Shown here: positions 16,131 to 58,799 of the stretch, piece after piece
How the letters are laid out: every line of letters starts with the position of its first letter
Numbering within the stretch: the stretch's first letter is position 1
Source of the DNA: Arthonia radiata
Taxonomy: Eukaryota; Ascomycota; Arthoniomycetes; Arthoniales; Arthoniaceae
Assembly: GCA_002989075.1 (NCBI GenBank)
Contig: PSQN01000007.1
Span: 884,558-948,557 of the forward strand
Direction: 5' to 3'
Length of the DNA: 64,000 nt
The notes under the pieces: model-generated
Seen by the model: the letters and a program-made list of their open reading frames with translations, nothing else
Databases searched by the model: none
What the model was told of the DNA's origin: nothing
Position numbers and translations under genes: made by a program

Positions 16131-16137
16131 AACAGCA

Positions 16138-39820: not shown

Positions 39821-40399
39821 ATGGAAGAGGCACGCTCTCGATCCGTTCCACGACGTGGTCGCTCTCGCTCCTCTTCGCCTGATGAGTCAATGAAGCGCTC
39901 AAGTTCAGCACCGGCACGCATTGCTTCCATGCAAGTCACCATCGACACACTCCGTGAGATCTCAGATTATCTCACCAGCATGCTCCGCGACGCCGATACC
40001 GCGGAACAGAAGCTACGCCGCGACTGCAACTACTACACCATCGCCTATTTTTGTAAATACCAAACAACAGCCACAACGCCAGACTCGGATGAGATGGCCG
40101 AGCCGGAGGAAATGGCCGAGCGGGCTGAGCGCTGGTATGAGGAACAAATCTATTTCGATGCGGGAGTTGAGTTTCAGCGTCTAGAAACGGCGTTTGAAAT
40201 TATCAGGGAGGTGGCTGAGATGGCGTTGGTGGAGCATAAGGGGTTGTTGGGGCGTGAGGGGCCAGATGGGGGGATGAAACGGAGGTTGGAGATGATTGTC
40301 GAGTGTGCGCAATCAAATATGCGGAGAAAGAGGGTGTTAGAGTTGCTTGAGGAGAAGGAAGGGCGTGAGTGGGAATGGGAATGGGAAATGGAGATTTGA
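39821..40399 (+). CDS. WPEI-family small protein 1 (diverged)
   Basis: Single exon, 192 aa. An Arg/Ser-rich N-terminus (RSRSVPRRGRSRSSSPDESM) resembles an RS-type or nuclear basic tail. The family core follows: TIDTLREISDYLTSMLRDAD (in place of WPEI-x-YL), 'AERWYEEQIYF' (W-Y motif), then 'IIREVAEMALVEHKGLLGRE' (C-terminal helix). It ends in a Glu/Trp run (EWEWEWEMEI). Closest to member 4, which also has TLREM. No known domain, signal peptide or membrane segment. Start: the first ATG after a pyrimidine-rich leader; a longer frame begins at 39677. Confidence 0.7.
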   Translation: MEEARSRSVPRRGRSRSSSPDESMKRSSSAPARIASMQVTIDTLREISDYLTSMLRDADTAEQKLRRDCNYYTIAYFCKYQTTATTPDSDEMAEPEEMAERAERWYEEQIYFDAGVEFQRLETAFEIIREVAEMALVEHKGLLGREGPDGGMKRRLEMIVECAQSNMRRKRVLELLEEKEGREWEWEWEMEI

Positions 40400-40733
40400 G
40401 ATGTTGTGAGGTTTGAGTGGATGGGTATGTGGAGAGAGATGGTTTGATATCATCTCCACGGGAGGGACGGTGAGTTTCGGCGTCGGTCAGGGTGGGTCGA
40501 GAGTAGAGCACCGAGATGGGAGGTTTCTTCAGGTGTCCTTCTGATACCGAAGCATGCTAACGAGAACGACAGTGCTAGCATGACCTTCACAGTACCAACA
40601 TCAGCGTTACTCGGCACGCTCGAAGTAAATTCCATTTGACACGGAGAATAACGTCCGCTTGGTTTCACTGGAGCTCCTCTCTTCTACTTAGATGTCGAGC
40701 ACCCACAACCTTCTCATCACCAGCTTTCACTCA

Positions 40734-41135
40734 TCACTTTCCGGCATTCTCTGACTTCTTCGACATCTCACCGTTATCCTCCGTCGGTTTGGTCGTCGCC
40801 GGTTCTACTACACTATCGTCGGCCTTCGTAAGCTCCTTCTCAGGCTCCTCCATCATCGCCGCAGACAGCGCCCTCAAACGCGTCGAGACACTGTCAACAT
40901 ACTCAAAATCCTCATACTCAAACGTCGTCTTCAGTCTCTCGTTAACAAACCAGCCCCGTAGCGCTGTGTCCGCGGGATCGGCTTCGAACTCGTAGCCGAA
41001 CATGCAGCGTCGGCCGTAAGCTTCTTTGAGCGCTTGTTCAGTATCGTCGTTGTGCTCGTTGCAGTGGCGGAGGGTGGTGAGGTAGTTTTTGATTTCATCG
41101 TGGATTGTGGGGTCCATTTTGGGTGGGGTGGACAT
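40734..41135 (-). CDS. WPEI-family small protein 2 (diverged, minus strand)
   Basis: Single exon, 133 aa, one of few members on the minus strand. Core: DPTIHDEIKNYLTTLRHCNE (motif helix without WPE), 'TALRGWFVNERLKTTFEYE' (W-F motif) and 'VSTRLRALSAAMMEEPEKEL' (C-terminal helix). The tail is acidic and Lys-rich (TKPTEDNGEMSKKSENAGK). Faces member 3 across about 320 bp. The IHDE/VHEE start resembles member 3, so the two form a subgroup. Function unknown. Confidence 0.65.
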   Translation of the reverse strand: MSTPPKMDPTIHDEIKNYLTTLRHCNEHNDDTEQALKEAYGRRCMFGYEFEADPADTALRGWFVNERLKTTFEYEDFEYVDSVSTRLRALSAAMMEEPEKELTKADDSVVEPATTKPTEDNGEMSKKSENAGK

Positions 41136-41456
41136 GATGGTGGTGAGTGTTTGTTTGGTGGAAGAGCAAGATTGCGGGATGATTAGGAGGGTGAGGAGCA
41201 GGCAAGACTTTATGAATTGAACTGCTCCAAAAAGGTGCGAAGTGAAGTAAGGTAGATGTGCTCAGACAAAGGCGGGCTTCTCTTGGCATCTCTTTCACCT
41301 ACCACTCCCGTCGGCTGTAGTACTGACCAGATAACATGAGCCTTCATCAACCAAAGAATTCGCATCCCGCAATCCCAAATGACCAACATCTCGTCACCGC
41401 GCTTGACTTCGAACATCTTCACATCTCACAACAATTCTACATCGCCTATCAACACC

Positions 41457-41816
41457 ATGTCAACCAAACCCGACATCACAGTCCATGAAGAAGTCATCGA
41501 TCAGCTCGTCCGCTATGTCACAATCGCAACAGAAATTGACCATGCTGAATTGTTCAAGCGTCGTGGACATGCCAATTACTCTTATGACGATATCTGGAGG
41601 GCCCCCTTGGAGGAGCGCCAAAAGTTCGGTGATTTTTCCCGAAAAATACACCACGACATACATCCACGACGTCAACGCGAGTTGCGAGTTCTGGAGATCG
41701 TTCAGCCGATGGTGGATGCTTTGTTAGAGGAGAAGAAGGACGCAGGTAAATTTGAGGAGGCTGACCGTTTGTGGAAGCGTTGGCGGCTGGGTTGGGCAGC
41801 TGCCCACAGCGGTTGA
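41457..41816 (+). CDS. WPEI-family small protein 3 (diverged)
   Basis: Single exon, 119 aa. Core: ITVHEEVIDQLVRYVTIATE, then 'DIWRAPLEERQKFGDFSRKI' and 'LRVLEIVQPMVDALLEEKKD' (C-terminal helix). It ends in 'WKRWRLGWAAAHSG'. Assigned to the family by position, size and helix pattern rather than by the WPE motif. No signal peptide. Confidence 0.65.
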   Translation: MSTKPDITVHEEVIDQLVRYVTIATEIDHAELFKRRGHANYSYDDIWRAPLEERQKFGDFSRKIHHDIHPRRQRELRVLEIVQPMVDALLEEKKDAGKFEEADRLWKRWRLGWAAAHSG

Positions 41817-42072
41817 TCTGGAAGCTTATCAACCCTGAGAGATTCTGACTGAGTGCTGGAGCAGACGAGTGAAGGAGCGAGCAACATGGCTGCGTGACAT
41901 ACTCACCTCTCTCGGGATCATCTGTCACAAACACCAAGGAATGTCGCTCTAGAACATCTCTCGATCTATTCGAACCTTTCCATTCACCCTTATTGTTTTG
42001 TTTCCTGACTCCCTTGCATAATCCTCCGACCGGAGATCCCTCGAGTCCACTCCAATTCAAGCATTCGACATC

Positions 42073-42585
42073 ATGTCCACCGCTCCAGCACACTCAGCGG
42101 CAAACACACAGAGCACTACCACACCTCCCACCAACACCAACTTCCAGCCTCCCAAGAATGGCGTCTCCATCGGTACCCTCAGGGAAATGACGCAGTATCT
42201 CCAAACGTCATCAGAATGCATCTTCGACGCCGCTCCCTTCGTCATCTCCTATCCTCCGACGACAGGCCGTTTGTGGTGCGACGAGACAGACTCCTGGCGG
42301 CACATGCCTCGAAAAGTCGCGAGATACAGAGCAGACCACGGCGTGCTGAGGGATATGGCAGCGGTGGTCATGAAGGAGCACAAGGAGCTGTTGGATGGTG
42401 ATGACGAGGGTAGGGAGTTGCTTGAGGTGTTGCGAATGGTCAAGATGCGTTCGGAGCTCGTAGTCGAACGCTTCGCGGGTCCGGACGATGATAGTGAGCA
42501 TTCGGGTGGTCCGGTCATGGGGTTCTCATCAGCGATCGTCTGGGGCGTGAAGTGGTTGTGGAGTCTGCTGATGGGACGTGGATGA
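42073..42585 (+). CDS. WPEI-family small protein 4 (diverged, C-terminal hydrophobic tail)
   Basis: Single exon, 170 aa. Thr/Pro-rich N-terminus, then 'VSIGTLREMTQYLQTSSECI', 'TDSWRHMPRKVARYRAD' and VLRDMAAVVMKEHKELLDGD, which matches the C-terminal helix of member 1 closely. Unusually it ends in GFSSAIVWGVKWLWSLLMGR, a hydrophobic/aromatic segment that could be a tail anchor. If so, this member may sit on a membrane. Function unknown. Confidence 0.7.
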   Translation: MSTAPAHSAANTQSTTTPPTNTNFQPPKNGVSIGTLREMTQYLQTSSECIFDAAPFVISYPPTTGRLWCDETDSWRHMPRKVARYRADHGVLRDMAAVVMKEHKELLDGDDEGRELLEVLRMVKMRSELVVERFAGPDDDSEHSGGPVMGFSSAIVWGVKWLWSLLMGRG

Positions 42586-43021
42586 TGACTCGGCTGCTGG
42601 GCCAACGCAACAGGTCTCAAGGCTCTCAAATCTAGCCTCAAAGCGTTCTTTGCGTCGCGCTTACACACGCAGACTTTCCCCAGCGGTGAGTTTCTTACCC
42701 TTATCGAAGTTTTGACATGAGAAACCCACACAAACCATTGACTCACCAAGGATCCGACTCATCGTTTCGCCGGTTGAAAGCACCTTGGAACATTGAAAAG
42801 ACTGGGCTGATTGAAGGCAGCCACGGACCCTTGGGTGAAGGGTAGACATTCCCTTCTCGGCCTAGCGCTGGCAACTATTTGCATTACTTTCCTTCAATCG
42901 TTCTTGCCCTTTTCTTCTTTGCCCTCAACCTCCCGACTCCATATACCGCGATTCATCGCAGTTGATGCTCACATCTCCTCTCGACATGCCACAACAGTCG
43001 GCCGAACAGACGTCGCACAAC
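42586..43021. other. Spacer with pyrimidine-rich leader
   Basis: No supported gene. Right part (about 42850-42960) is CTTTCC/TTCTTG-rich before the next ATG. Confidence 0.35.
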
Positions 43022-43456
43022 ATGGCCACGCCGTCAGACACTCCCAACTTCGCCGCCTGGCCAGAAATCATCAAGTACCTTCACACGCTGCTTGATGCAC
43101 CTAAGAACGTCCACGCCGCGGATAGCAGCTGCCACCGCAGCTACATCGCACGCAACGAACACGAATCAGAGTCTCCTACCGACGTCACAAAGGAGGGATG
43201 GCACTACAAGGAGCGCTGGGCAAACGGCGGGCATCCGAGTAAGGGTATCAAGCAAATTGTTGCAGAATTCGACGTATGTGAGGTCGTTGCAGACATGGTG
43301 AAAGCGATGCTGAAGGAGTATCGCGAGCCGATGCCGGGAGACAAGAGCGGACGCTCTCTAGGACAGGCGAAGGCTGGTGGGCGGTATCTCGAGGAGCAGT
43401 TGATGTCGCTTCTAGCCACTTGCGACCTCAAGTCGAATAAAGACTGGTTGTTGTGA
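43022..43456 (+). CDS. WPEI-family small protein 5
   Basis: Single exon, 144 aa. A clear member: MATPSDTPNFAAWPEIIKYL, 'HTLLDAPKNVHAADSSCHRS', 'KEGWHYKERWANGGHPSKG' (W-H motif), 'VCEVVADMVKAMLKEYREPM' (C-terminal helix) and a final helix 'YLEEQLMSLLATCDLKS'. Intracellular by composition. The leader upstream is CTTTCC-rich, as for other members. Confidence 0.78.
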   Translation: MATPSDTPNFAAWPEIIKYLHTLLDAPKNVHAADSSCHRSYIARNEHESESPTDVTKEGWHYKERWANGGHPSKGIKQIVAEFDVCEVVADMVKAMLKEYREPMPGDKSGRSLGQAKAGGRYLEEQLMSLLATCDLKSNKDWLL

Positions 43457-43882
43457 GAGTCTGGGCTGTAGTAGAGGGAGGTTGTATGGCGGTCAAGAAC
43501 AAGGATGCTTCACCGATGAGTTTTATATCGGAGAAAGCAGAACTCGAGAGCAAGTATCAGCTTCTATTGCAGAACTATGGACGAAAATGAGAGACAGCAT
43601 GTAAAATCTCCGAGGGGTCGAGCAGTTCTTCCAAGAGGATGAGCAGGTAGTAGTGCTCTTCAAATCTGATTCCGCACATGTTTCCTTCCATCGGGAGTGC
43701 ACCCGTTTGGACGTCTCCGCCTCACCTGTGCGTCATTACGTCATCCAGGATTCGGTTTCCATGTCTTACGCTCCCACAGCTTCTTCTTTACTCTCCGCAT
43801 GCTCCAAATCTACGTCTTGCCGACTCTCAACCCAATTCCACAACACCAGCGATCACGCAATCTCATCACAACGCCATCAACC
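43457..43882. other. Spacer between WPEI genes 5 and 6
   Basis: No gene supported; pyrimidine-rich toward the right end. Confidence 0.35.
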
Positions 43883-44251
43883 ATGGCCACCCACAGCACC
43901 CCCAACTTCTCAACCTGGCCCGAGGTCATCGAATACCTCTACACTCTCATCATCACCACTAGACAGGCAGACCTTGCAGAGTACAACCTTCGCCGATGCT
44001 ACAGAAACGGCGCGTGGGACAAGGGCATCAGCGCACAAACATTCGAGGAAGTGAAGTGGTACCAGGACGACAAGCAATCCAAAGTGATTTATCATAGCTC
44101 GCCGTGCACACAGGAGGTTGAGCGTCTGATAACGGAGATGACGCAGCCGATGCTCGAAGAGCTTGAGGTCGATTGTGTGAAGAATGGAGACTGTAAGGAG
44201 AAGAGCGACTTGACAGTGTCGCTCAGGCGCCTGCTGCGGTATTTGCGTTGA
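43883..44251 (+). CDS. WPEI-family small protein 6
   Basis: Single exon, 122 aa. MATHSTPNFSTWPEVIEYLY, then 'ADLAEYNLRRCYRNGAWDKG', 'FEEVKWYQDDKQSKVIYHS' (W-Y motif) and 'VERLITEMTQPMLEELEVD' (C-terminal helix), ending in 'LTVSLRRLLRYLR'. This is close to the shortest complete form of the family and useful as a reference for its core. Function unknown. Confidence 0.78.
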   Translation: MATHSTPNFSTWPEVIEYLYTLIITTRQADLAEYNLRRCYRNGAWDKGISAQTFEEVKWYQDDKQSKVIYHSSPCTQEVERLITEMTQPMLEELEVDCVKNGDCKEKSDLTVSLRRLLRYLR

Positions 44252-44524: not shown

Positions 44525-44584
44525 ATGTCCACCAACCCCTCAGACTTCTATACCTGGCCCAGATTCATCAGTACTATGGTATAA
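44525..44584 (+). pseudogene. WPEI-family 5' remnant
   Basis: Starts like an intact member (MSTNPSDFYTWPRFISTM, compare MSTNRPDYAAWPDLITYF of member 7) but ends after 19 codons at TAA. Sequence resembling dispersed repeat copy B begins immediately after. No downstream family sequence follows, so the gene was cut off inside the motif helix. Confidence 0.65.
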
Positions 44585-44602
44585 GGCTTTTATCACATTC
44601 TG

Positions 44603-44704
44603 ACTGACATGGTAGAAGTCTAGGATAGATGGCGGTGAGAGTTGGATTATGTACGCATTCATCACGTGACATCACGTGTCTTGGCATTGCCGTCCGGACT
44701 GCCA
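44603..44704 (+). repeat. Dispersed repeat, copy B
   Basis: Matches copy A over GACTG.CATG, GTCTAGGATAGATGG.GGTGAG, CATCACGTGAC and CGTGTCTTGGCAT..CCGTC.GGACTG; it lacks about 40 bp present in copy A between the last two blocks. It directly follows the WPEI remnant. Confidence 0.6.
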
Positions 44705-45008: not shown

Positions 45009-46484
45009 TCATGGAAGGTCTACTTCGATGACGCTCTCCGTTCCCATACCTCTCCAGATGTTGACCAGTTTGAGGCCAGACGATGTCACCAGATTATTCC
45101 AATCTTCTTCCGTACGCTCTTTGGCACTTGCAATCATCATCATAGTCAAGTCATGAGCTGTGACTGCGGGATGCGGTGATGCTTCGTTCACGACTGTCTC
45201 TAGCATCAGTATCTTAGAATACCCACGTTCCATAGCGGGTATGAGGCTGGTCAGGATCATTCGTGCTTGTGAGTCTGGCCAGTCATGGCATATCAGGTGC
45301 ATGTGGTAGATGCGAGCACCTGGTGTTATCTCTCAGCAAAACATCACCAGCCAAGATCCGCAACAATGCTCACCTATCACTGGCTGTGGGGTGAAGAAAT
45401 CATGTCCCATCTTTTTCATCGGAGGCTTGAGCTCAACCTTGACCACAAAGAATCAGTATCCCCTCCAGCTAAAGGGAGAGGCCTTCGAGAGTCACTCACC
45501 AGCTCAACAACACTAGGTAAGTCTTGTAGGACTAAGCTACCGTCTGGCATATCTGGAAAAGCCTTGATGAAGTGATTCAGATCATGGCCGCTGCCGCCAC
45601 CAACATCCACTACGAACGGACGATCCTTCTTCCAATCTTGGTACAACCCCATAATGGGATATATCGTGGTCACAGCTGGCTTACTCATGGACATGACTGC
45701 CCTGCCACTCTGGAAAATCGGACTGATCTCTGGCTTCGACATCGTATCGAAGAAGCGCTCCTTTCGGCCGAGCATGTGTGTCCAATTGGTATCATCCGCG
45801 TCGTCAGGCAGCGTATATCTGTGTTCTTTAAGAAATCTGGGCAGGTTCATGAATCCAGGCACCACGGTCTGGTACCTACATGAAGCGTGTGAGAAAGTGT
45901 GACTGTCCAGCGATGGATGAAGAGAGAAAGAGACCTACGTGAAGGACCACATATCTCTCATTCTAGGACGGCCGAGTGTCTCTGAGAAGTGGGTCATGCA
46001 GTAAGTTTGCTCATCAACTTGATCAATGATACGTTCGGCGGCCAGATGCCTCAAAATACGGACTGGAACCTTGAGTGTCAGTCTGCTCCAATTGCGGTTC
46101 AAAAAGCTTATAGAAGAAGCGCATATCACCCACCAAGAACATCACTGTTGTCCAGCCCAAGCATGAGGCTCAGCTCGTGCACACGCTTGTCTCCGCCTCC
46201 GAGTTCCGTCCACTTCTCAAAGAGCTGGAGATCACAACAGACCTTCATGGCTGATACGAGCGCAGGCTAGCAAAGAGGAATACTGTTAATTGAGTAGATT
46301 ATTTGATCAGCATCACGGCACTCACGTAGCTCCAGACATGGTTCCAAATCGTCTCGAACGGCGTCTCAACCCTACTGATGAGCGCTCTGGCAGCCTCCCT
46401 TACTTGAACTCGTTCGGCTTCATCGCTAATGTTGTTGGCTTTATAAGTCTTCATTGAAACAACCAGGTTCTCAGTTGATGCCAT
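45009..46484 (-). CDS. SAM-dependent O-methyltransferase (fungal secondary-metabolite type)
   Basis: Six exons (46484-46326, 46266-46130, 46082-45939, 45875-45500, 45437-45374, 45319-45009), all phases consistent, 396 aa. N-terminal winged-helix dimerisation region: 'LQLFEKW', 'VPVRILRHLAAERIIDQVDE', 'YCMTHFSETLG'. Catalytic domain: FVVDVGGGSGHDLNHFIKAF (SAM motif I), 'LVLQDLPSVVEL', 'MGHDFFTPQPV', 'ARIYHMHLICHDWPDSQAR' (catalytic His before DW) and 'VTAHDLTMMMIASAKERTEE'. This is the class that methylates hydroxyls of polyketides and other aromatics. On the same strand as the P450 at 47-49 kb; together they suggest a small biosynthetic module, though no backbone synthase is in the window. 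Confidence 0.92.
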
Positions 46485-46918
46485 GGTCGTTGGCCGCTAG
46501 CAAATCTCGTCAATGGAAATGCCAAGAAGTATGAAGGTTTTCAAGAGGCCGGTCTGAGAAAGCCTTTATATGTCTCAGGCGGCTGGCAATGGTAGAACTT
46601 CGTTTAAATGGCAAGAGTTCATCTCTAGAAGAGATTTACGAGCTATCCTTGTGGCGCTTCACCGCTTTTTGAAAGGGTGCACATGTGGAAGGACCATTGT
46701 TCCACAGCGGCTTGGTTCATGATGACCCGCATAGCGCGATCCTGGGCACCCCGATGCGCACATGCAGCTCATGCATAGGCTGTATGCCTCGTGGAGGCGA
46801 AGCTGTCGCCTACGCTTGGCATGAAGACTTTCGTATAGCGGCACTACGCCTCTCGTATGCGCAAGCGTCTTTTCGTGAAAGACATATCGATTGTTCAACA
46901 ACTTGCGCGCTGTATTCG

Positions 46919-47062
46919 GTAGGTCTCAGAGCAGCCGCACATTCCGATCTGTGCCTCAAAAATCATTGTCAGGCAGTAAACAAGATGGGACTGCTCCCAT
47001 AGCCCTTTGTTTGAACCTTGACCCAGCTTCAGAAGTGGTTGTGCTGACATGTTCCTTCTAAT
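46919..47062 (+). repeat. Introner-like element, intergenic degenerate copy
   Basis: 144 bp, GTAGGTCTCAGAGCAGCC to GTGCTGACATGTTCCTTC plus TAAT. Internal blocks 'ATCTGTGCCTCAAAAATCAT', 'CCCTTTGTTTGAACCTTGA' and 'CAGCTTCAGAAGTGGTTGTG' match introns of the hydrolase gene 16 kb away. The terminal AG is lost (TAAT instead of TAG), so it cannot splice as in the source. It lies between the methyltransferase and P450 genes in no recognisable exon. Confidence 0.82.
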
Positions 47063-47136
47063 CATCCTCGTATGATGTTCTACAATTGAGTCTGTATTCA
47101 CTTCCATTGCGGTGAAGGCCACACCCCGTCAGAATG

Positions 47137-48848
47137 TTACTTCACATGCCTGGCCACAATCTCGCAGTCCATGTCCCACTGTCTCACGAACCAACTGTTC
47201 TTGACCTTCCACTCTTTTCTGGCATCTACAAGATAGACGTCGAAGTTTGCATACAGCGTCGCAATCAGCTTGTATATCTCCATCGTCGCCACGTAACGCC
47301 CGCTACAAGCACGCTTGCCGTGCCCAAAAGTCAGGTCTGTCTCTTTCATCTTCGAGACACGCTTCTCATAGTTTCCCTCACTCTCACTTTCGTATTGTAG
47401 CCAGCGCTCTGGTCGGAAGCTATCCGGCTCTGCCCCAAAAACACCCTCGTCGCGATGGATCACCTTGGGGTTGATGCCGACGATAGTGCCTTGAGGGATG
47501 GTACGTCCGTCCTTGATTCGAAAGCTGCTTGGAACGACTCGTTCGAGAGGTAGACCGACTGCTGGATGGAGTCGCGTCGATTCGCGAATGACAGCGTCAA
47601 GGTAAGGCATTCTACTTGCGTCTTTCCATTGGATCGGCTTATCATCATTCTTTGCACCATCGACCTCAGCCTGAAGCCTCCTCATCGAGTCTTTGTCTTT
47701 GGCAAGATAGTAAACAATAGCGCGGAGCTCGATCGCTGTAGTGTCAGACCCCGCAATAACATTGTTCACCAGGTATGTTACGATCCTTGCGTCGTCAACT
47801 TCCGGATCTTGTTCAGCAAGCTCCAGGAAAAGGTCCAAAAAATCCTCTTGGCCTCGTGGTCTGTGTTCATCTGCGCCAGACCGCCTCTCCGACAACAATT
47901 TCGCTGCATATGCCGCAGCGGAACCGAAGGAGGGGGGCCCAATGCGATACACAGGGTTCTTGTCAAAGATCTTGTCCAGAAATGGGATTTGTCCAACAAG
48001 AGCAAAGTAATCAACAGCTCGTTCACCAGTATTGATGAGCGAATCGATGTCCGACTGTGTATCCATGAACCCTAGGTCACGGGAGAACGTAATGTGACCA
48101 ATGACATCCCAGGCAACTGCAGTGAGAATCATCAGTATATGTACGCCGGACGAATAGATATATCAAGACATGGTTACAGTAATGGAGCCACTTGTCGATC
48201 GCGCACGGGTTTTGACGGGCGACGAATCCCTGTTGGAGCTTGTTCATGAACTTTTGAATGGTATCGTCTACCAGATACTCGAACCGGAGCACGCTTGTCA
48301 TCGTATACAAGCGGCTTACAGGTTTGATCATCATGGTGTGCCATTGTTCATTGCGCGTACTAAATGTGGTAGACATAACATAACCTCTGCCAATGGCTAT
48401 GTCATTGCCGGCATAGAAATCGCTCTAAAGTTGAACTTCATCAGCCACATAAGTCGTACCTCCCCATGTCAATGATACGGTGCACGTGTAGGGCGACATT
48501 GACCTTTTACATGACTTGCATAAGAATATATGGTACTGACAGTGTTGAGAAACGTACCTTGACCCACTTCTCTTTAGCGGAATAAATGGTTTTGACGAGA
48601 TCGGGGTCGTTGAGACTGACGCAATTAGGGCCCAGTCTGACGGCTGGACCATATCGACGATGAAGATTCAGTTGGGTAACGTCGGCTCTACCTTCCCAGA
48701 TATTGAATAAGCGCCAGAGATTTGTAAACTTAGCTAGAAGGGGGCCTGGTATGCCCTTGATTGGGGAGAGCAATGTATGGCGCAAGGCTGCTGAGGCAAG
48801 GACAGCTACGACTGCTCCGATAATTAAGAGCGTGGCAGACATGTCCAT
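47137..48848 (-). CDS. Cytochrome P450 (pisatin-demethylase-like)
   Basis: Haem-thiolate monooxygenase on the ER. Exons 48848-48558, 48424-48178 and 48116-47137 give 505 aa. N-terminal anchor (TLLIIGAVVAVLASAALRH) and a Pro-rich hinge 'IKGIPGPLLAKFTNLWRL'. 'WLHY|FAWDVIGHITFSRDLGF' confirms the second splice. I-helix NNVIAGSDTTAIELRAIVYY, ExxR in 'YLDAVIRESTRLHPAVGLPL', 'PDSFRPERWL' and the haem loop DLTFGHGKRACSGRYVA with the Cys ligand. The ERVVPSSFRIKDGRTIPQGT block is typical of the benzoate/pisatin-type fungal families. All catalytic signatures are present. Substrate unknown; likely acts with the neighbouring methyltransferase. Confidence 0.93.
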
Positions 48849-49820
48849 GCACCCGAAACCAACGAAGTTGCAAATGTCGTGTGAATGAGCACTATCACCA
48901 GATAGCGTTGGGAAAGCCAACTAAGAAGCTGGCAAACGCAACGTAGAATATCAGCTCAACGAAGAGCTTTCGCAATGAGGCTTGCTTTGCGGCGTAGTTC
49001 AGATTTATATCAGAGATCGACTGCGGTAATGGAGGTGGGTGACGTAGTTTGTGTGCCACTAGAGACTTTTATCATGTTCACACTTCCACGAGGCAGATTT
49101 TCCACTCATTGCGTCCACCAACCAAAATCCATTCCTCTCCACAACAGTTTTTGTGTACCATGCATTGTCACTTGACTATTGATTTGCAAAAATTCTAATC
49201 CCTGGGTAATGCTCCTGCACGGCACCTAGGCGCTATCCTCATGCGCGTTCCTCCTGCACCCTTGAGGCGTGGTACCAGCAATCACACAGCGCTGCGCCTC
49301 GGTCAGTATACCAGCCCAGCTGCTCCCATCGTCTTGATATTTTCAGCTCCTCTACTATAGGTGGCGCTAGCAATATAAGTGAACAAAGATCGCCCGAACC
49401 ACTAACAACCCGTGGCAAGGAATATAGGCTGCACGGTAACCGTTGACCCAGCGGGCTGAGACAAGCTGCACTAGCTGCCCCGCGCGTGCCGCTCCTGTAC
49501 ATATGCATGCAATTATCCCCTACTAGCTCGGGACAAAGCCCCTGCCGCGCCTGCTAATCCACACGAGGCAAAAGGCGAACAAGATCTGCATGTTGGAATC
49601 GGGAAGTAGGAGCGCCTAGTATGCAGTAGTGCCTACAAAGCGTTTTCATCGGATCGAGCCGCAACTTGGTTCGCATCAAGTACTCAATGCTCTCCCCGGA
49701 GTATTGCAATGGCAGCGCCATCAGCTCTCTCTTGCGCTTACGGCTAACCAGTCTGTAATTCAATCTCCTCCCCTGCATCAGTTCCCCAAAGTCTTCAAAC
49801 GCACTGTCAGCACACTAGCG
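48849..49820. other. Divergent intergenic region of P450 and rhodopsin-like genes
   Basis: No supported gene. The region should contain both promoters. Confidence 0.4.
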
Positions 49821-51004
49821 ATGCTCGCCAACCTCGCACCCGCCGTTATTGGCGTGATGACGGTAGAACTGGTTCTTGCGTTCGTCGCTGTCGTCGCTCG
49901 AATCTATACCCGCATCTTTCTCAAGAAAGCCTTTGGATGGGACGATGCCATGTTGATCGTTGGCTTAGTAGGTCAAGAGCCTTTGACTATCGCTCAGCTT
50001 GGGTTTAATATCCTATACAGCTCACACACGTTGGCTTCACTATCGGCATGTTCACTTCTGTAGGCTTTGGGTACGGAAAGCGAGCGTCAACGTATCCTGT
50101 TGCCCAATACAGTGCCATCGTCAAAACCGAAATCATCGCGCAGACTCTGGCCATAGCCGCGTTCGTGTTTACCAAAGTGGCCATCAGTGGAACTATGATG
50201 CGAATATTTCCCGGTCGCGTGCTTCACGGAATTCTCTGGTTTCTTATCGTTACTACTTTTGTCATTTTTGGCTTGTGTGCTATTCTCGACTATGCGCAGT
50301 GCGACCCTCCCGCTCGGCTGTGGGACGCGTCCATTGAAGCAAAATGCTGGAATCCAAAAGTCTACGCCGACTATGCGATTTTTACTGGCGGTCAGTGATG
50401 CGTGGTAGCAATAGAACTCGAGTTACTGATTGGATTGACAGCATGGGGAGCGCTTTTCGACTTCACTGTCGCTGCCATCCCGTGGCTCTACATCCCCGGA
50501 TTGCAAATGAAGCAGGCAGAGCGGCTTGCTATTGCCTCAGCCCTGAGCTTGGGTGTTTTGTATGAAAAATCTTGCTCCAATGGCAAATGCACCCCTTGCT
50601 AAGATATTCCGACAGTGCAGGCGTTTGCTCGATTGTTAAGTCAGTTGCGCTCAAGAACATCAGCTCCAGGACGGACTACGCATGTGAGTTCAAGCCCACC
50701 GGCATACGACACAGAACCTTTCCAAGTGCTCTCAGACGACACCATCGGCGTGATGTTGTGGTCATCCACTGAGATATGTCTCACATTTTTGGCCGCCTCA
50801 ATCCCTACTTTGCGACCCATTCTCTTGAAAATCCAAAACAGACAGCAGTCATGTTCCAAAGGCGCACAACAATTCGAGTTCCAAACTATACGAGGAAGAA
50901 CAGACCGGGCAACTAGCTTGCACTCTCAAACAGACAGTGACAAGGCTATCTTGACGGGCATAGGATTGGATCGCGGTCCAAACGGGAGAGAAAGTTATGT
51001 GTAA
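49821..51004 (+). CDS. Fungal rhodopsin-like 7TM protein (Pth11-related, no CFEM)
   Basis: Integral membrane protein of the large ascomycete 'rhodopsin' domain family. Exons 49821-49967, 50021-50390, 50442-50559, 50616-50683 and 50727-51004, consistent phases, 326 aa. Helices: VIGVMTVELVLAFVAVVARI, 'DDAMLIVGL|LTHVGFTIGM', 'VKTEIIAQTLAIAAFVFTKV', 'VLHGILWFLIVTTFVIFGLC' followed by 'DYAQCDPPARLWD' (the family's C..P..W loop), 'WGALFDFTVAAIPWLYI', 'ASALSLGVFAGVCSIVKSVA' and 'WSSTEICLTFLAASIPTLRP'. RIYTRIFLKKAFGWDDAM is a signature loop. The tail is short and polar. It lacks the CFEM domain of Pth11 itself. Ligand unknown; members are often linked to biosynthetic clusters. Confidence 0.88.
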
Positions 51005-51168
51005 ACAGTAGCGTAGATGGGATACTGCCCTTCCAACTTACTGATCAAGGTTGGATGAGGGCCGTGGTGAGCGAGCACGGCGGACACCGTGCGATCGAAC
51101 GTGGTGACTCTCCTTTCTCTCCATACTGGCGTCAAGCTCCTCAAGTTTTAGCTTTGTCATCCGCAGAA

Positions 51169-51248
51169 CTAGTTGTCAGCGAGTGCGTCGTATTCTTTTG
51201 ATGTGGTCTGCGATGCGGCGATGAGGGTTTGGAGGTAGATGATTGTTG
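51169..51248 (-). pseudogene. WPEI-family internal remnant, inverted
   Basis: The minus strand encodes IIYLQTLIAASQ and 'DALADN' then TAG, matching 'LITYFQSLIAASQ...DALADG' of member 7, whose ATG lies 160 bp away on the opposite strand. The start codon and WPE are missing; dispersed repeat copy C joins exactly at that edge. Confidence 0.7.
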
Positions 51249-51326
51249 TGTGCAGGATCGCCCAGTCCAGACGGCCATGCCAAGATACAGCATAATCGGT
51301 AGATAGCTTCCTAATTAGGAAGTATA
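51245..51326 (-). repeat. Dispersed repeat, copy C
   Basis: On the minus strand: TATAC..CCTAATTAGG, TATCTTGGCATGGCCGTC, TGGACTGGGCGATCCTGC and ACACAACA in the same order and spacing as copy A. Partly shared with copy B. Confidence 0.62.
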
Positions 51327-51408
51327 TGAGCACTACAGGACAGAATTATATAAACCTAAACTCTTACCAGCACGCAAGCTGTACCCTATTCTCCTACTAC
51401 TCCCAAAC

Positions 51409-51801
51409 ATGTCCACCAACCGCCCAGATTACGCAGCATGGCCCGACCTAATCACGTACTTCCAAAGTCTAATCGCCGCATCGCAAACCGCAGTAAAAAC
51501 AGACGACGCACTCGCCGACGGATACTTCGACACTCTCGATTTCAAGCGATTTACGGCACAAGATAGCAAATCCAAGGAATGGTACAGCTCTGCTGACGTC
51601 AATGCCGCCGAAGTTCTTGGGTGCGGACCAGTCAAAGACATCAAGGAACTGGTGGGAGAAATGGTAAGCGTGATGCTGCAGGAGATAGAGTGTGAGCGTG
51701 AGGCGTTTCGCGAGGTCTTTGAAAGCGTCAAAGAATCCAGACGCGTCGAGCTTGAGTTGAGAAAGCTACTGCATTGGTGCAAGGGTGGGTTGAGATTCTG
51801 A
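51409..51801 (+). CDS. WPEI-family small protein 7
   Basis: Single exon, 130 aa. MSTNRPDYAAWPDLITYFQS, 'LIAASQTAVKTDDALADGYF', 'SKEWYSSADVNAAEVLG' (W-Y motif), 'DIKELVGEMVSVMLQEIECE' (C-terminal helix) and a terminal helix 'RVELELRKLLHWCKGGL'. A TATATAA-like box (51346-51353) lies 56-63 bp upstream. First gene of the second WPEI block and parent-like relative of the adjacent inverted remnant. Function unknown. Confidence 0.8.
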   Translation: MSTNRPDYAAWPDLITYFQSLIAASQTAVKTDDALADGYFDTLDFKRFTAQDSKSKEWYSSADVNAAEVLGCGPVKDIKELVGEMVSVMLQEIECEREAFREVFESVKESRRVELELRKLLHWCKGGLRF

Positions 51802-52168: not shown

Positions 52169-52582
52169 ATGGCCACTACAGCCACCACGCCAAACATCTC
52201 TACCTGGCCAGAAATCATCACCTATCTGGAGACGCTCGTCGAAGCCGTCACAGAGCCGCAGAACAGAGATGAGTTCATGGGCAATCGCTACTTCAGTCTT
52301 CGAAGAGCCCAGGAAACGATGCCTCAGGAGCCACGGGTCCAGGAGTGGCATCGACAGCAGACCCAGCATGAACGCAATACGCCTAGCTGGCGTCATCTAA
52401 AATTAGCGAGAAAACTTGCCTGGGATATGGCTGTGGTGATGTTGGAAGAACTTGAGCCGCAGATGGAGACTTGTGCTCACACTCAAAAGGTGTTGGATAT
52501 GCGGGCGAAATTGCTGGAAATGAAGGAGGTATATGACGAACATGGCGCGATCCGGCATGGCACTGGTGAGGGACGGTACTGA
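52169..52582 (+). CDS. WPEI-family small protein 8
   Basis: Single exon, 137 aa. MATTATTPNISTWPEIITYL, 'ETLVEAVTEPQNRDEFMGNR', 'RVQEWHRQQTQHERNTPSWR' (W-H motif), 'LARKLAWDMAVVMLEELEPQ' (C-terminal helix). It continues with a Lys/Glu-rich helix and ends 'GTGEGRY'. No signal peptide or known domain. Confidence 0.8.
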   Translation: MATTATTPNISTWPEIITYLETLVEAVTEPQNRDEFMGNRYFSLRRAQETMPQEPRVQEWHRQQTQHERNTPSWRHLKLARKLAWDMAVVMLEELEPQMETCAHTQKVLDMRAKLLEMKEVYDEHGAIRHGTGEGRY

Positions 52583-52949: not shown

Positions 52950-53405
52950 ATGGCCACCGCAGCAGGCAAGCCCGACTTCTCCACCTGGCCAGAGATTATC
53001 GCCTACTTCACTCAGCTCCTCGAAACAACCGATCAGGTCCGTAATCAAGAGATCGTGCTCGGCGATCACTGGTTCGACACGATTACAATTGCCGGCCACC
53101 ACCACCACAGCGCCCGCTCAAGAGCCTGGTATGACGCCTTTGCGCAGAACTCTTTGCGCTACAGTGGCCTCCAACCGAGAGATGACATCCGAATGGTGGT
53201 GGGAAACATGTGCAATGTGATGTTTCTGGAGGTTGAAAAAGCAATCGAGGCTGGGCACAACACGGAGGAGAACGTCGAATTGGGTCAGCGCTTGGGGGGG
53301 ATTATGCTCGAGTGTTCACAGGCTTCTTGGAACAACGGAGTTGCAGATTTGTTGGCTCGTTGGTCTTCGCAGAGTGGCGCAAGGGCGGGCCCACACTCTC
53401 GTTGA
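52950..53405 (+). CDS. WPEI-family small protein 9
   Basis: Single exon, 151 aa. MATAAGKPDFSTWPEIIAYF, 'TQLLETTDQVRNQEIVLGDH', a His run (AGHHHHSARSRAWYDAF, with the W-Y motif) and 'DIRMVVGNMCNVMFLEVEKA' (C-terminal helix). The tail 'WSSQSGARAGPHSR' is basic. The CTCTCGC/CTTCTTC leader resembles that of member 8, so the two may be tandem duplicates. Confidence 0.78.
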   Translation: MATAAGKPDFSTWPEIIAYFTQLLETTDQVRNQEIVLGDHWFDTITIAGHHHHSARSRAWYDAFAQNSLRYSGLQPRDDIRMVVGNMCNVMFLEVEKAIEAGHNTEENVELGQRLGGIMLECSQASWNNGVADLLARWSSQSGARAGPHSR

Positions 53406-53700: not shown

Positions 53701-54099
53701 ATGGGCACCACCCAATCCAAACCCAACACAGCCGCCTGGCCCGAAATCATCGCCTACCTCACCGCCGCCTCCGCCTGCATCAACCCCGTCTTCAGCCGCG
53801 AGGACGCCATCGCCACCACCTACAGCACAGTCAGCTTGGAGAAAGCCGACGATCTGGAGTACGCCGATGACGAGCACGACTGGTACATCAAGCAGAATCT
53901 GTGGAAATGTTCGAAATATCCTGAGCCCACTTCGGAAGACGTCGCGCTTGCTCAGGAGCTCATCGAGGAGCTCAAGACGGTGATGGCTGCTGAGAACCTC
54001 GAGGCTTTTAAGGCCAGCGGCGGTAGGTTTGGGGATCACTCGGTTGCCGGTGCGATGAACGCGGTTGTTGACAGACTGGAGACGGAGGGCTTTGTTTAG
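53701..54099 (+). CDS. WPEI-family small protein 10 (possible N-myristoylation)
   Basis: Single exon, 132 aa. MGTTQSKPNTAAWPEIIAYL: Gly2 followed by TTQSK fits an N-myristoylation signal, so this copy could be membrane-tethered (inference). Then 'TAASACINPVFSREDAIATT', 'DEHDWYIKQNLWKCSKYPEP' (W-Y motif) and 'DVALAQELIEELKTVMAAEN' (C-terminal helix). Ends 'NAVVDRLETEGFV'. Otherwise intracellular in composition. Confidence 0.78.
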   Translation: MGTTQSKPNTAAWPEIIAYLTAASACINPVFSREDAIATTYSTVSLEKADDLEYADDEHDWYIKQNLWKCSKYPEPTSEDVALAQELIEELKTVMAAENLEAFKASGGRFGDHSVAGAMNAVVDRLETEGFV

Positions 54100-54447
54100 G
54101 GTGGCGTATCGGCGTCATGGCGCTGTAAGGGCCGTAGGCGGATTAGCAAAAGCCCTGGAGCTTTAGATGTGCATTCAGCCGTCATGGGCATGTCTGTACG
54201 CTTCCAGTAGTCTGAAGATTCTATATTGGCACGGACGTTCGTCGCCACCCACGTCAAAATTGCGTCCCGCGTGCGATCTTCAACTCTTGGCGCTTCAAAC
54301 GCTAGCTTGTTTCGTTCATCGTCATCCCTTCCTTCACTCCTGTGATCTTTCCCTACAGACTTCCTCCACGGTATTTGCGTTGGTTGAATCCAGCACAATG
54401 CCCTTGTGAACCCAGCAAGCCAGACCGAGAGACCAAAGGCCACACCA

Positions 54448-54977
54448 ATGTCCACCCCACCACCCGCCCCTAATCCCAACACCTGGCCCGAAATCCTCGA
54501 CTACCTCACCCCCTCCTCGCCGCCTCAAAGCAACCCGGCGATAACGACGCCCGCCTCCTGCGCAACTACAGATAAAATGTTCACAGAAAGTCAGGGGATA
54601 TGCTGGCAGCAATTGAGCCCGTGAGCGTTGCCCAGTCATCCGAGATCCCTGCGCATCTTAACCCAACCGGCCTCAGCAACGAAGCTTTCAACACCAAATG
54701 GAGGAACTACTATTTTGATGAGGCGTATTCGCATACGATGCTGTGTGATACGAATCATGAGCATGAGGTGCTGGAGATAGTGGAAGCGATCGCAACGGTC
54801 GTGGTGAATGAGTACGCCGAAGGCGTCCATTGGGATGGGCAGTATGGAGATAGCATCATCAACGGGGCGGAGCTTGAACGCCGGCTAATAGGGATCGGAG
54901 ATATCGAGTCGCGATTAGAGACCGAAGCGAAGACTGCTGATTCGCATCGATCGCGGAGGTGGTCGACGGATGGTTAG
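54448..54977 (+). pseudogene. WPEI-family member 11, frameshifted
   Basis: Starts normally (MSTPPPAPNPNTWPEILDYL), then loses frame in a CCCCC tract at about 54509-54513. In the shifted frame the family reading resumes as LLAASKQPGDNDARLLRNYR and meets a TAA. Beyond that the same frame is open to 54977 with 'NTKWRNYYFDEAYSH' (W motif) and 'VLEIVEAIATVVVNEYAEG' (C-terminal helix). Two lesions separate otherwise well-preserved halves, so the copy decayed recently. I found no donor/acceptor pair that removes both. A short product from 54600 is possible. Confidence 0.65.
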
Positions 54978-55287
54978 TGAGATTGTGGACTGTGTTCAGC
55001 AGGTCAAACAGGAACCGACCTGCTGCTTTGCTCTGGGATCTTGTAGCAGTCTCTGCTCGCTAAATGTTCGAATAGCGCAAGGTCAAACCGCATGCACCTG
55101 CTCCTCCGCGCAGATTCACACTCTACCCTAGCTTGGAGGTCTGGCGTGCTATTGCCTGAGCTCGGTGCACCTTCCTTTTTCGGTTTGCTTTGAGACTCCA
55201 ACCTCGGAATTTCACCTCATCTTTGCTCTTCTCCTCTTGTGTCAATGAGACTCCAGCACTCAACTCAACCTTAGCACAGCGACAGCC
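54978..55287. other. Spacer between WPEI copies 11 and 12
   Basis: No gene; TTTGCTCTTCTCCTCTTG-type leader sequence near 55220 before the next ATG. Confidence 0.35.
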
Positions 55288-55833
55288 ATGTCATCTCCAC
55301 CACCCACTTCCAACCCTGACGCCTGGCCCGAGATACTAAAATACCTCGAAACACTCCTCGAGGCGTCTGCAGAGCCCATTCGTTCCGAAAGCAACCTGCT
55401 CGGCCAAATCGACTTCTTACAATGGTGCCTTTCGCGCGAAGCAAACAACAATGCCGCCGCCATCTACTTTGGTCTTCCTACGACGTTCTCACACTCCTTG
55501 ACTCCAGTTGACGCAACCATCGAGGAATTCGAGAAGCTGACAGCATTCTATGATGCCCAACAACGAATAAGAACTGAGTCTGCGGGTTCGAAGCGGCATG
55601 CTATGCTGCAGACACTGGTGAAGCAGCTCGTGGGCATGATGGGTCACGATCACTTCGACCGGTGTCGTGAGGCGCGCCGGCGAGGTGAAACTGAACCACG
55701 ACTTGATGGGGAAACGGCAGAAAAGATAATAGCATGGGAGATCTGTCGGAGAGCTATAGAGCTGATCGCGTCTAGGAAAGCTCTTGCGCATACTTTGCGG
55801 GCCTCGCACGTGTCGCTCGGATACTGGAAGTAG
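55288..55833 (+). CDS. WPEI-family small protein 12 (long form)
   Basis: Single exon, 181 aa. MSSPPPTSNPDAWPEILKYL, 'ETLLEASAEPIRSESNLLGQ', a longer middle (IEEFEKLTAFYDAQQRIRTE), 'LVKQLVGMMGHDHFDRCREA' and an extra C-terminal helical stretch 'IIAWEICRRAIELIASRKAL'. N-terminus nearly identical in pattern to copy 11 (Ser/Pro-rich before W). The central W-Y motif is not obvious. Function unknown. Confidence 0.75.
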   Translation: MSSPPPTSNPDAWPEILKYLETLLEASAEPIRSESNLLGQIDFLQWCLSREANNNAAAIYFGLPTTFSHSLTPVDATIEEFEKLTAFYDAQQRIRTESAGSKRHAMLQTLVKQLVGMMGHDHFDRCREARRRGETEPRLDGETAEKIIAWEICRRAIELIASRKALAHTLRASHVSLGYWK

Positions 55834-56068
55834 CTTGAAGATTTTAGCAACATCCAAGGGTTTGTTATTGCAAGTTGGAAAGGCGGATTTGAGGGTTCGC
55901 AACTGCGATAGTGGGCGCAGCCTTAGCGACATAGATGAAGGAGCTCTGCTGTCCGCTCAATGGTAGTCGTCAATAAGGTCGAGATCACGTCTCCGACACT
56001 TCACAGCGACAACGAACGCCTCATCGCAGATAGTCGAATACATGCACGCTCTTCACTTCTCTATCCAT

Positions 56069-56551
56069 TTACCACACCTCATTAGCCTCCCTCTTCGCCT
56101 CCCACAGCTTCCTCAACGTCTCATCATCGAACATCTTGTAAGCGATCCACTCGGGACGATCGGACTTCACCAGATGCTCGATCTCTTTCCACATCATCTT
56201 GACCAAATGATCTACGAGTAGCTTGAAAAGTGTCAACAAAGGTCAGTCTGGGCGGAAGATTTCCCTTACTTCAGTTTCCCAGAGTGGACTTCCCAAGGGA
56301 GGATGGTTCGTGTGAGCATGATCCATGCCGTCATCGAAGAACGCCAAGCGTTTGCTAACTTCTTCGAACGAGATCTGGTTTCGATTATATGCCTGGTAAA
56401 CTGCGGATTGGGCCGTCATGCATGTCGTCCGGAAGCGGCGCTTGCTCTCATAGTCGGAGCTGGCTTTGTTGACGGAGCTCCGGACGGCAGCGAGGTAGTC
56501 GAGAATCTCGGCCCAGGCGGCGTAATCTGGTTTGGGTTGTTCGGTTGCCAT
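56069..56551 (-). CDS. WPEI-family small protein 13 (spliced, minus strand)
   Basis: Two exons, 56551-56270 and 56221-56069, 144 aa; GTAAGG donor, TTCAAG acceptor, phase 0. This is the only member where I find an intron. MATEQPKPDYAAWAEILDYL (WAEI variant), 'AAVRSSVNKASSDYESKRRF', 'ISFEEVSKRLAFFDDGMDH', then across the intron 'LLVDHLVKMMWKEIEHLVKS' (C-terminal helix). It ends 'LRKLWEAKREANEVW'. The second exon's clear coding character supports the splice; without it the protein stops 11 residues after the junction. Confidence 0.75.
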
Positions 56552-56664
56552 ATTTGGTGCCAGAGCTTTCGCATTAAGACGAGGGTGTATGCTGATACGG
56601 CTATGGTGTGACGAAGTTTGTTTGCATGTGAGTAAGTCCAGAAGCTCAGAGATTTGAACGGACG

Positions 56665-57122
56665 CTAGTGTTGTCGCACGGGGCAACCACACGCGGCGCT
56701 CAAGTGGGGCCAGCGATGTAGTTGGAGCGAGGTGGTAGATGATGCACGTTTGCCTCTTGGCGAACTAGTCAGCTGAGTACCTAGCCGTGCATTAGCGCGA
56801 TGCTTGTATTCGATGCTGTTGGCGGTGTCTTCGTTGTAGGGAGCACAGCTTCTGGCGTGGAAGAAGAGCACAGAGGCTTTGGTGTCTCCATCTTTATATT
56901 TGATCTCCTTATCCTCGCCACACCAGACCCGTAGCTTAATGTTAGTGAAAGGGTCCGGCAGCAGAGCGTTATTGTGAGACTTACCATGCCGGCAACGTCC
57001 TTAGCTGCGCATAGCGAAAGGATGTCTGTCAGAATGACACGACGAACTTGAGCAGGTCCGCCACCACGACGCTCAGGTGTAGCCCCACTCGTCGAAGTAG
57101 ACAACGTTGCGCTGGTCTTCAT
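56665..57122 (-). CDS. Possible spliced gene of unknown function
   Basis: A likely exon ending 'RRVILTDILSLCAAKDVAGM' (to about 56986) joins in phase, across an intron with GTAAGT donor and TTAAG acceptor, to 'LRVWCGEDKEIKYKDGDTKA', 'SVLFFHARSCAPYNEDTANS', 'IEYKHRANARL'. The second block is strongly protein-like. The upstream and downstream ends are unresolved (the frame runs on to 56665 with poorer composition). No family recognised. Confidence 0.35.
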
Positions 57123-57238
57123 CCTTGTTGACAGCGACCGTTTTCTGAGTAAGAAAAGGGTCAGACAGAGTCCTCATTTGCACTCAGGGGACGCCAGTAG
57201 ATGGCTCCTTGCGCTTCAGCTTGAGATGATCTGAGCTG

Positions 57239-57565
57239 ATGGGAGATGGGCCGGAGAGATCGTCGAGTCGTTTGTTGTGCGGCGCAATGTCTGACTGGCT
57301 GTCGGGACTGCTCAAACTAACGCAGGAGATCCCGCCGATTGACCCGCGAGAGGAACTGGCTGATGTCGTGGATGAAGCCCGAAACAGTATCGCAGACATG
57401 ATGTGGCAGGAATTGCAGCGTATCCTCTTTCGGGACCCGGAAGACCATGAACATGGTGATTGCATTGGATGCAGCGATGACTATCGCAACACACCAGAGT
57501 GTAAGTTGGCTGAGAAGGTGGCAGCCTGTCTCCCTGACTATCCAGATGGAGAACCGCAGGACTAG
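57239..57565 (+). CDS. 108-aa acidic protein, possible truncated WPEI relative
   Basis: Single exon. After a short leader: MSDWLSGLLKLTQEIPPIDP, then 'VVDEARNSIADMMWQELQRI', which resembles the family C-terminal helix (compare LVDHLVKMMWKEIEHL of member 13). A Cys-containing tail follows: HGDCIGCSDDYRNTPEC. The WPE start is absent. It may be a divergent or 5'-truncated member; the antisense frame is a poorer candidate. A shorter start lies at 57287. Confidence 0.45.
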   Translation: MGDGPERSSSRLLCGAMSDWLSGLLKLTQEIPPIDPREELADVVDEARNSIADMMWQELQRILFRDPEDHEHGDCIGCSDDYRNTPECKLAEKVAACLPDYPDGEPQD

Positions 57566-58097
57566 ACTGGAATCATGCGCGGGGCGAATCCTTCGCAGAC
57601 TTTAGTGCATGGAGAGATGTTCGCCGGAGGTGGAGATGCAGATCATGATCGCGACCTGCAGACGAGGTGAAGCGTCAATGGTCGTTGACTCGAGGTATCC
57701 AACGGAAGATGTTCGTTCTCATGAGGATGCATCGTTGGAGGTCCCGAGCCTAGTCAAAACCTGTCCACCTTCAGGAGTAGCTGATGCCGATATGACTGTA
57801 CGGCATAGCGGTCGTTCCTTTTGACAACGCTTTTCGCTTGATGTTGGTTAAACAGAGATTGCGATGCAGTGAGGAACTGACCCGAGAGCGTAGGTATCGG
57901 CAGGTACGCGCGCTACTAAGGTGAATATCCAAGCCGTGGTAGCGACCTGCAGCTGCAGCCTGCACGAGAGTGAACCGCAGAACGGATGAGTCAGCTGTAG
58001 CCGAACGAAAGGTACTTTTCCACTCTTTGCTTCTCTTCTTCAGCTTCCTTTTCCTTTCTTTGACCTTGGCGAAATCTTTCTCACTACCGCCATCGCC
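57566..58097. other. Spacer
   Basis: An open frame at 57609-57824 (+) has no support. The right end is a CTTTCC/CTTCTT-rich leader for the next gene. Confidence 0.35.
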
Positions 58098-58799
58098 ATG
58101 CCAGCCTCAAAGCGCAAGGTCGTCGACCTTACAATAGACACCCCAGCGCCTAACACAAACCCAGTCTCGACCGCAGCTCAAGCTCCCAAGAAGAAGAGGA
58201 CAACTGATACCGAACCCAAAGCTAAGCCCAACAGAGAGCTTTGGCCCGAGATCATCGAGTACCTCACTCAACTCAAAGAGTGTTGCCACGACCTCGACAA
58301 GCCAGATCAGTCGCTGTTCAACCAGTACTGCGGAACGGCAGGTCGCTTCGCCTTCGGCAGACAACAGGATGATGATCCACTGGCGCGAAAACACTGCAGC
58401 CGGGAGCTCTCACTCACTCATAGCATCACGTCTCGGCCGCACGGCAAGCCGATGTACAAGTTGCTACAGCAGATCGGGTCGGTGATGGACAGAGAGATCG
58501 ACGATGACATTGACAATGGTGTTATCCCGTCAGACGACCCAGCCGCGAAAGAAATGCAGAAAAACCTTTTTGGCCTGCACCTGAAGACCGACAAGATGAA
58601 GAAAGCTCACAAGGCTCGTCGTGGTAAGAGCGGTGGCGGCAAGAACACCGACCAGGCTGCGGCTGGTACTGAGGTTGCCAAAGGTGATGCCACGAAAGAA
58701 GATAAGACTGGGCGCACCAACGGTCGTGATGGCACCGACCGCTGGGTTAAGCAGCCAAAAGGTCGTCGAGGCGGGCGCGGAGATTTCGGTGGGAAGTAA
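58098..58799 (+). CDS. WPEI-family protein 14, long nuclear-type form with SIM and RGG tail
   Basis: Single exon, 233 aa. N-terminus: MPASKRKVVDLTIDTPAP, where VVDLTID fits a SUMO-interacting motif, followed by a basic PKKKRT nuclear-localisation-like patch. The family core begins RELWPEIIEYLTQLKECCHD; 'MYKLLQQIGSVMDREIDDDI' matches the C-terminal helix. Then a Lys/Gly-rich tail (HKARRGKSGGGKNTDQAA) ends in GRRGGRGDFGGK, which is RGG-like. The only member with clear nuclear and RNA/DNA-binding features, suggesting fusion of the core to new terminal regions. Confidence 0.75.
   Translation: MPASKRKVVDLTIDTPAPNTNPVSTAAQAPKKKRTTDTEPKAKPNRELWPEIIEYLTQLKECCHDLDKPDQSLFNQYCGTAGRFAFGRQQDDDPLARKHCSRELSLTHSITSRPHGKPMYKLLQQIGSVMDREIDDDIDNGVIPSDDPAAKEMQKNLFGLHLKTDKMKKAHKARRGKSGGGKNTDQAAAGTEVAKGDATKEDKTGRTNGRDGTDRWVKQPKGRRGGRGDFGGK

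Follow-up and report, generated by a model that had tools for sequence, protein, structure and literature searches.

Lineage-restricted tandem arrays are common and familiar in fungi, and such families of filamentous ascomycetes combine local duplication, divergence, pseudogenes and the lack of a known domain. F-box proteins carry a short N-terminal motif, Pro-Glu followed by hydrophobic residues, that opens a helix. Described here is an array of small genes contained within a 64,000-nucleotide (64-kb) stretch of Arthonia radiata contig PSQN01000007.1, hereafter referred to as the window. The proteins encoded by its clear members share the motif W-[PA]-[ED]-[ILV]-[IL]-x-Y-[LF], abbreviated as WPEI. 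The array resembles the ascomycete families in all of the above respects, and differs from them in that no described family with a WPEI signature was found in Pfam, NCBIfam, PADLOC or the literature searched, which agrees with the claim of an earlier sequence-only reading of this DNA that the family has no name. The likeness to F-box proteins lies in the short N-terminal Pro-Glu and hydrophobic motif at the start of a helix; none of the 13 unbroken members matched an F-box model in Pfam at expectation (E) values up to 1, and a sub-threshold F-box-like match was observed in another gene of the window. A third point of comparison is provided by the WY-domain RXLR effectors of oomycetes, which are presented in the relevant part of PMC10462633 as small helical bundles and proposed scaffolds that free the surface to change. 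The likeness to these is again limited to a small helical bundle, here predicted for one member, referred to as m08. The WY-domain effectors are secreted oomycete proteins, whereas the WPEI proteins are fungal and their N-termini are not strongly hydrophobic. Membership is not claimed, and the best 50 of 100 fold matches of m08 include no entry named as a WY effector.

As judged by sequence comparison, the clear members of the array demonstrably descend from a common ancestor, and the tandem array is real. The motif occurs in all ten of the clear members to which the sequence-only reading had assigned it and in none of the four listed as diverged relatives. A search of the entire 64 kb with the DNA form of the motif, allowing up to three mismatches, yielded ten matches, all inside the ten clear genes, versus an expected 0.56; none of 100 shuffles reached ten. 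Profiles constructed from eight of the nine clear unbroken members recovered the ninth in each of nine trials with scores of 27.5 to 80.6 bits (E values from 2e-7 down to 1e-23, calculated for a search of 1000). Beyond the region at ∼40-59 kb, the top profile match among open reading frames (ORFs) of at least 25 amino acid residues had an E value of only 0.79. A single family with repeated duplication, loss and strong divergence, as had been proposed, is supported because the leave-one-out recovery is accompanied by a coding-frame signal and by one broken and two remnant copies.

The profile also recovered three of the four diverged relatives. Scores of 33.8 bits for 40734(−) (m02), 13.5 bits for 41457 (m03) and 13.6 bits for 42073 (m04) were not equaled by any of 2000 shuffles of the respective sequence. 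The fourth, 39821 (m01), scored 5.6 bits, a value equaled by 33 of 2000 shuffles, and its membership is not shown on profile score by itself. It matches 42073 with an E value of 2e-4 (single comparison), and the two have in common a variant start, TLRE. They also form the sole fork in the tree that is not drawn open (86/91), which lies below the program's star and is flagged as a possible long-branch false join. The tie of 39821 to the family thus runs solely via 42073 and is uncertain. In a profile-profile comparison, the nine clear and the four diverged members matched with a probability of 88%. An additional ORF at 57230-57565(+), between m13 and m14, was considered as a further member. It contains a helix resembling that of m13 and, with 4.1 bits and six of 3000 shuffles equal, outperforms 39821 on the shuffle test. 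It was omitted, having been chosen by visual inspection; the motif is missing, and nothing further ties it to the family.

The members at all 14 positions listed earlier begin with ATG, and 12 consist of single open frames. Two of the entries required revision. The ORF at 56551(−), as listed, would represent exon 1 only, and the gene probably continues through a 48-nucleotide intron, bounded by GT and AG and containing CTGAC, to a full-length 144-residue protein that gains the Met/Glu helix upon splicing. The ORF corresponding to exon 2 scored 8.5 bits (E = 0.16) against a profile built without it and 32.6 bits against one that included it. The copy at 54448, which had been counted as a clear member, is not one open frame but is broken; its two ORFs scored 26.1 bits (none of 2000 shuffles equal) and 14.0 bits (one of 2000). 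Two degenerate copies, 44525(+) and 51166-51273(−), were absent from the earlier member list. The first was aligned with m07 by tblastn (50% identity over 16 residues, E = 0.15), and for the second, 51166-51244(−) is an inverted repeat of 77% identity over 79 nucleotides with a tblastn E value of 1e-5 against m07. The array thus comprises 13 unbroken genes, of which 39821 is the least certain, one broken gene and two remnants, for a total of 16 copies. It is split in two by ∼7 kb containing ORFs for an O-methyltransferase (−), a P450 (−) and a fungal rhodopsin-domain protein (+) at 45009-50398. With respect to repeat-induced point mutation, the index values of the array scatter about the mean of the window and give no clear sign of it.

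A short dispersed repeat, whose copies are 75-77% alike, is located at 16053-16128, 51244-51319 (−) and 44648-44701. Both family remnants either overlap copies of this repeat or lie within less than 80 nucleotides of them.

The coding signal was evaluated with codon scores trained on ten ORFs of the window, chosen by the analyst as likely genes; of the eight among these that were scanned individually, four have strong Pfam hits and four have no hit or a sub-threshold one. The coding frame was the best of six in all 13 unbroken members. As a control, ATG-initiated ORFs of at least 100 residues lying off-frame over genes or members were scored, and only one of 12 was the best of six, namely the second piece of the broken copy at 54448. 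The corresponding value for other ORFs elsewhere in the window was 20 of 49, some of which are real genes. Within the motif, the differences among eight clear members fall predominantly at third codon positions (44%), with 21% and 7% at the first and second positions, respectively.

Library scans covered the 13 unbroken members, with m13 represented by its first ORF only and m11 left out. No member matched a Pfam or NCBIfam entry at an E value below 0.05 or above a curated cut-off, the best E values being 0.059 and 0.052, respectively. The sequences of solved structures, searched with a profile built from the nine clear members, contained no convincing match (best E = 1.2). No relatives were observed in viral contigs (queried with m08 and m05), prokaryotic genomes (m09) or plasmids (m09, tblastn), collections that contain few or no fungi, and hence these results carry little weight. 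One match to the DNA pattern of the motif in a viral contig was judged by eye to be due to chance, given a stop codon nine codons past the motif. A literature search, which left most subscription journals outside its coverage, revealed no described family with the WPEI signature. Its members may well have been annotated elsewhere under the label of hypothetical protein.

The structure of m08 was predicted from an alignment of 11 members, with m01 and m13 left out. The model, with a predicted local distance difference test score (pLDDT) of 81.9 and a predicted template-modeling (TM) score of 0.65, contains four helices delineated by residues 10-50, 55-68, 74-101 and 106-123. The WPEI motif opens the long first helix, Trp 60 and His 61 are positioned in the second, and the Met/Glu signature lies in the third. 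The sequence-only reading had described the Met/Glu helix as C-terminal and had considered a central W-[YH] motif to be common to most members. When counted with a loosened pattern rather than the exact one first given, the Met/Glu helix is found in 12 of the 13 unbroken members (not in 41457), and it comes third among the four helices predicted for m08 rather than last. The W-[YH] motif is present in six of the ten clear and one of the four diverged members. Among the 13 aligned members, the positions of Glu 15 and Glu 94 (m08 numbering) are acidic in all, Tyr 19 is kept in 12 and Leu 20 in 11. Over the predicted helices, conservation correlates weakly with hydrophobicity (r = 0.22; 65 of 5000 permutations were as high), and the effect is carried by helices 1 and 3. 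Of the best 50 of 100 matches of m08 in the PDB, a STAT2 chain reached the top TM-score (0.55, relative to the query length) and, with an E value of 6.1, was set aside.

The isoelectric point (pI) is below 7 in 12 of the 13 unbroken members, the exception being the basic m14 with a pI of 9.5. The highest hydrophobicity over 19 residues is 1.36. The unbroken members contain between zero and four cysteines; within their first 35 residues, the 11-residue maximum of hydrophobicity is 1.79, reached by m10. This profile, with no strongly hydrophobic N-terminus, is in agreement with the earlier statement that there are no signal peptides. On the basis of the conserved acidic, Tyr 19 and Leu 20 positions, the weak correlation of conservation with hydrophobicity, and the pI values, the proteins of this locally duplicated family are read as small, probably soluble intracellular helical scaffolds that probably bind partners and whose genes would duplicate, diverge and decay in place. 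We assign this explanation a probability of roughly 0.45. According to it, the proteins would not leave the cell and would function through bound partners. Conserved residues would hold the bundle together, the remaining surface would change between paralogs, and gain, divergence and loss of copies would all take place locally. We propose no catalytic role.

The tails of the proteins at the two ends of the array, basic and RGG-like in m14 and RS-rich in m01, hint at the nucleus. The lysine-rich N-terminus, RGG-like C-terminus and pI of m14, together with the RS-rich N-terminus of m01, would be expected if the proteins were nuclear or nucleic acid-associated regulators, with the bundle as an interaction module and the tails as a sign of the original role. 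The other 11 unbroken members, however, have pI values of 4.3-6.7 and no comparable tails, the membership of m01 is the most doubtful, and no DNA- or RNA-binding family was matched in Pfam. This alternative is considered distinctly unlikely. A second possibility is that the proteins are directed at a host or competitor and are exported by an unconventional route. In being small, locally duplicated and strongly diverged, they are similar in broad terms to orphan candidate effectors as treated in the pertinent part of PMC10462633. The low N-terminal hydrophobicity and the few cysteines make secreted effectors of the ordinary type less probable; an unconventional route is not affected by this argument, and such export is considered very unlikely.

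Several observations weigh against the intracellular scaffold as the explanation for the array. The comparison of predicted structures suggested at the outset gave a usable model for only one of two members, so that a shared fold is not shown. The model of m02, aligned with the other three diverged members only, also displays four helices, but with a pLDDT of 45 it is unreliable. A helical bundle would in any case be an easy prediction, and the fold search with m08 yielded no significant match, the best E values being 0.96 among solved structures and 0.26 among viral structures. In helices 2 and 4 the conserved side faces away from the hydrophobic side, by 161° each. Nine of the ten inner branches of the tree are open. 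Finally, when entire genes are compared, the differences at first, second and third codon positions are near level (0.61, 0.54 and 0.65). This is also expected under saturation. It would likewise fit duplicates that for the most part drift and have little selected function, as would the finding of one broken copy and two remnants among the 16. Drift of this type, on the other hand, does not readily account for 13 open frames, each with its coding frame the best of six, or for an acidic residue at both of the invariantly acidic positions in all 13 members, and it is regarded as distinctly improbable.

The gain and loss of copies and their high divergence are also features anticipated for genes of self/non-self recognition or genome conflict, and the window contains a second tandem array, of BTB-like genes. 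Divergence alone, however, fits relaxed constraint equally well. None of the 13 members matched HET, HeLo or STAND/NACHT domains at E values up to 1 in Pfam, and PADLOC provided a single match, in one of the 13, with an E value of 0.003 that was taken as chance. Such a role is considered highly improbable. A broader proposal, which we view as very doubtful, would combine it with the scaffold: an undescribed family of filamentous fungi in which tandem birth and death of copies diversifies the surfaces with which one small helical scaffold, with two invariantly acidic positions, binds partners in the cell. The family would be a cytosolic counterpart of the secreted scaffold families and would serve in recognition or conflict within the cell. 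Many short lineage-restricted fungal genes are nameless. Whether selection acts on such genes, and to what end, is a question well suited to an array like this one, in which members can be aligned, an intron is probable, some copies are broken and one predicted fold is usable. Should the surfaces indeed diversify inside the cell, the array would represent an unusual kind of recognition system; otherwise, it shows the rise and decay of tandem orphans.

A possible lead to regulation comes from the promoters, taken as positions −300 to −1 of 13 copies, including the broken m11 but without m02, which shares its promoter with m03, and without the 44525 remnant. The sequence TGCCAAG is given as a Rim101 site in the relevant section of PMC5349140 and is one form of the PacC site, GCCARG, as it appears in that of PMC3432076. 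It occurs in five of the 13 promoters as compared to 4.2% of random places (p = 1.3e-4, the lowest of 17 listed motifs, three of which are PacC forms). Between −220 and −90, an interval picked after the sites had been seen, GCCAAG is found in seven of the 13, which none of 5000 random sets reached. These numbers would be expected if the array members belonged to a pH-response (PacC/Rim101) regulon. GCCAAG, however, ranks third of 425 6-mers, and a 6-mer performing equally well turned up in 30 of 150 control sets. The leading 8-mer contains GCCAAG; its result was equaled by 12 of 60 controls when −300 to −1 was considered and by one of 60 within −220 to −90. The counts for the −220 to −90 interval and for 8-mers come from an analysis with a second-order Markov control. 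Note that the TGCCAAG site of m07 lies inside the dispersed repeat; without m07 four promoters are left, with an uncorrected p of 0.001-0.002. The looser GCCARG is not clearly enriched in the promoters (p = 0.06). The PacC-like site, which fails the search-wide control, is therefore a weak lead as judged from these sequences, and the regulon is considered unlikely. Shown in Table 1 are the coordinates of all copies.

Table 1. Members, exons and degenerate copies of the WPEI array, in window coordinates.
Feature	Position	Strand	Description
m01	39821..40399	+	uncertain diverged member, 192 residues; RS-rich N-terminus; TLRE replaces WPEI
m02	40734..41135	−	diverged member, 133 residues; divergently placed to m03
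m03	41457..41816	+	diverged member, 119 residues
m04	42073..42585	+	diverged member, 170 residues; perhaps sister of m01
m05	43022..43456	+	clear member, 144 residues; leave-one-out 57.0 bits
m06	43883..44251	+	clear member, 122 residues; leave-one-out 60.6 bits
degenerate copy	44525..44572	+	start of a member, 16 codons aligned, remainder lost; DNA repeat family D5
degenerate inverted copy, part of m07	51166..51273	−	in-frame stop; outer part (from 51244) overlaps dispersed repeat
m07	51409..51801	+	clear member, 130 residues; leave-one-out 70.5 bits
m08	52169..52582	+	clear member, 137 residues; leave-one-out 80.6 bits; representative for folding
m09	52950..53405	+	clear member, 151 residues; leave-one-out 71.2 bits
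m10	53701..54099	+	clear member, 132 residues; leave-one-out 50.3 bits; pI 4.3, lowest among unbroken members
m11	54448..54977	+	broken copy; motif and rest of family match in different reading frames
m12	55288..55833	+	clear member, 181 residues, with insert (alignment); leave-one-out 32.4 bits
m13 exon 1	56270..56551	−	leave-one-out 27.5 bits on unspliced ORF
m13 probable intron	56222..56269	−	48 nucleotides, GTAAGG...CTGAC...AAG; inferred from sequence
m13 exon 2	56069..56221	−	carries Met/Glu helix
m14	58098..58799	+	clear member, 233 residues, basic; lysine-rich N-terminal and RGG-like C-terminal tails; leave-one-out 37.6 bits

In keeping with an origin in a filamentous ascomycete, the window holds snR52 and, among 57 ORFs that were scanned, those for ribosomal protein L3, a fungal rhodopsin-domain protein, a P450, a PUF protein and coproporphyrinogen oxidase. 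The L3 protein scores 589-592 bits against the solved L3 chains 7olc, 7r81 and 8oo0, and at most 522 bits against the others among the best 60 of 115 matches. Of these chains, 7olc is from Chaetomium and 7r81 from Neurospora. The second tandem array, located at 13666-26081 (−), consists of five BTB-like gene copies, each split across several ORFs, and one piece scored 18.7 bits against Pfam BTB, for which the cut-off is 20.5. An inverted repeat at 16145-16191 and 16446-16492, with arms of 47 nucleotides that are 98% identical and separated by 254 nucleotides, is perhaps a small transposable element. Another dispersed repeat is shared by 30574-30715 and 46918-47060 (143 columns, 74% identical), and a tandem repeat of 21 nucleotides in ∼18 copies at 3865-4249 lies within a long open frame, 2932-4467.

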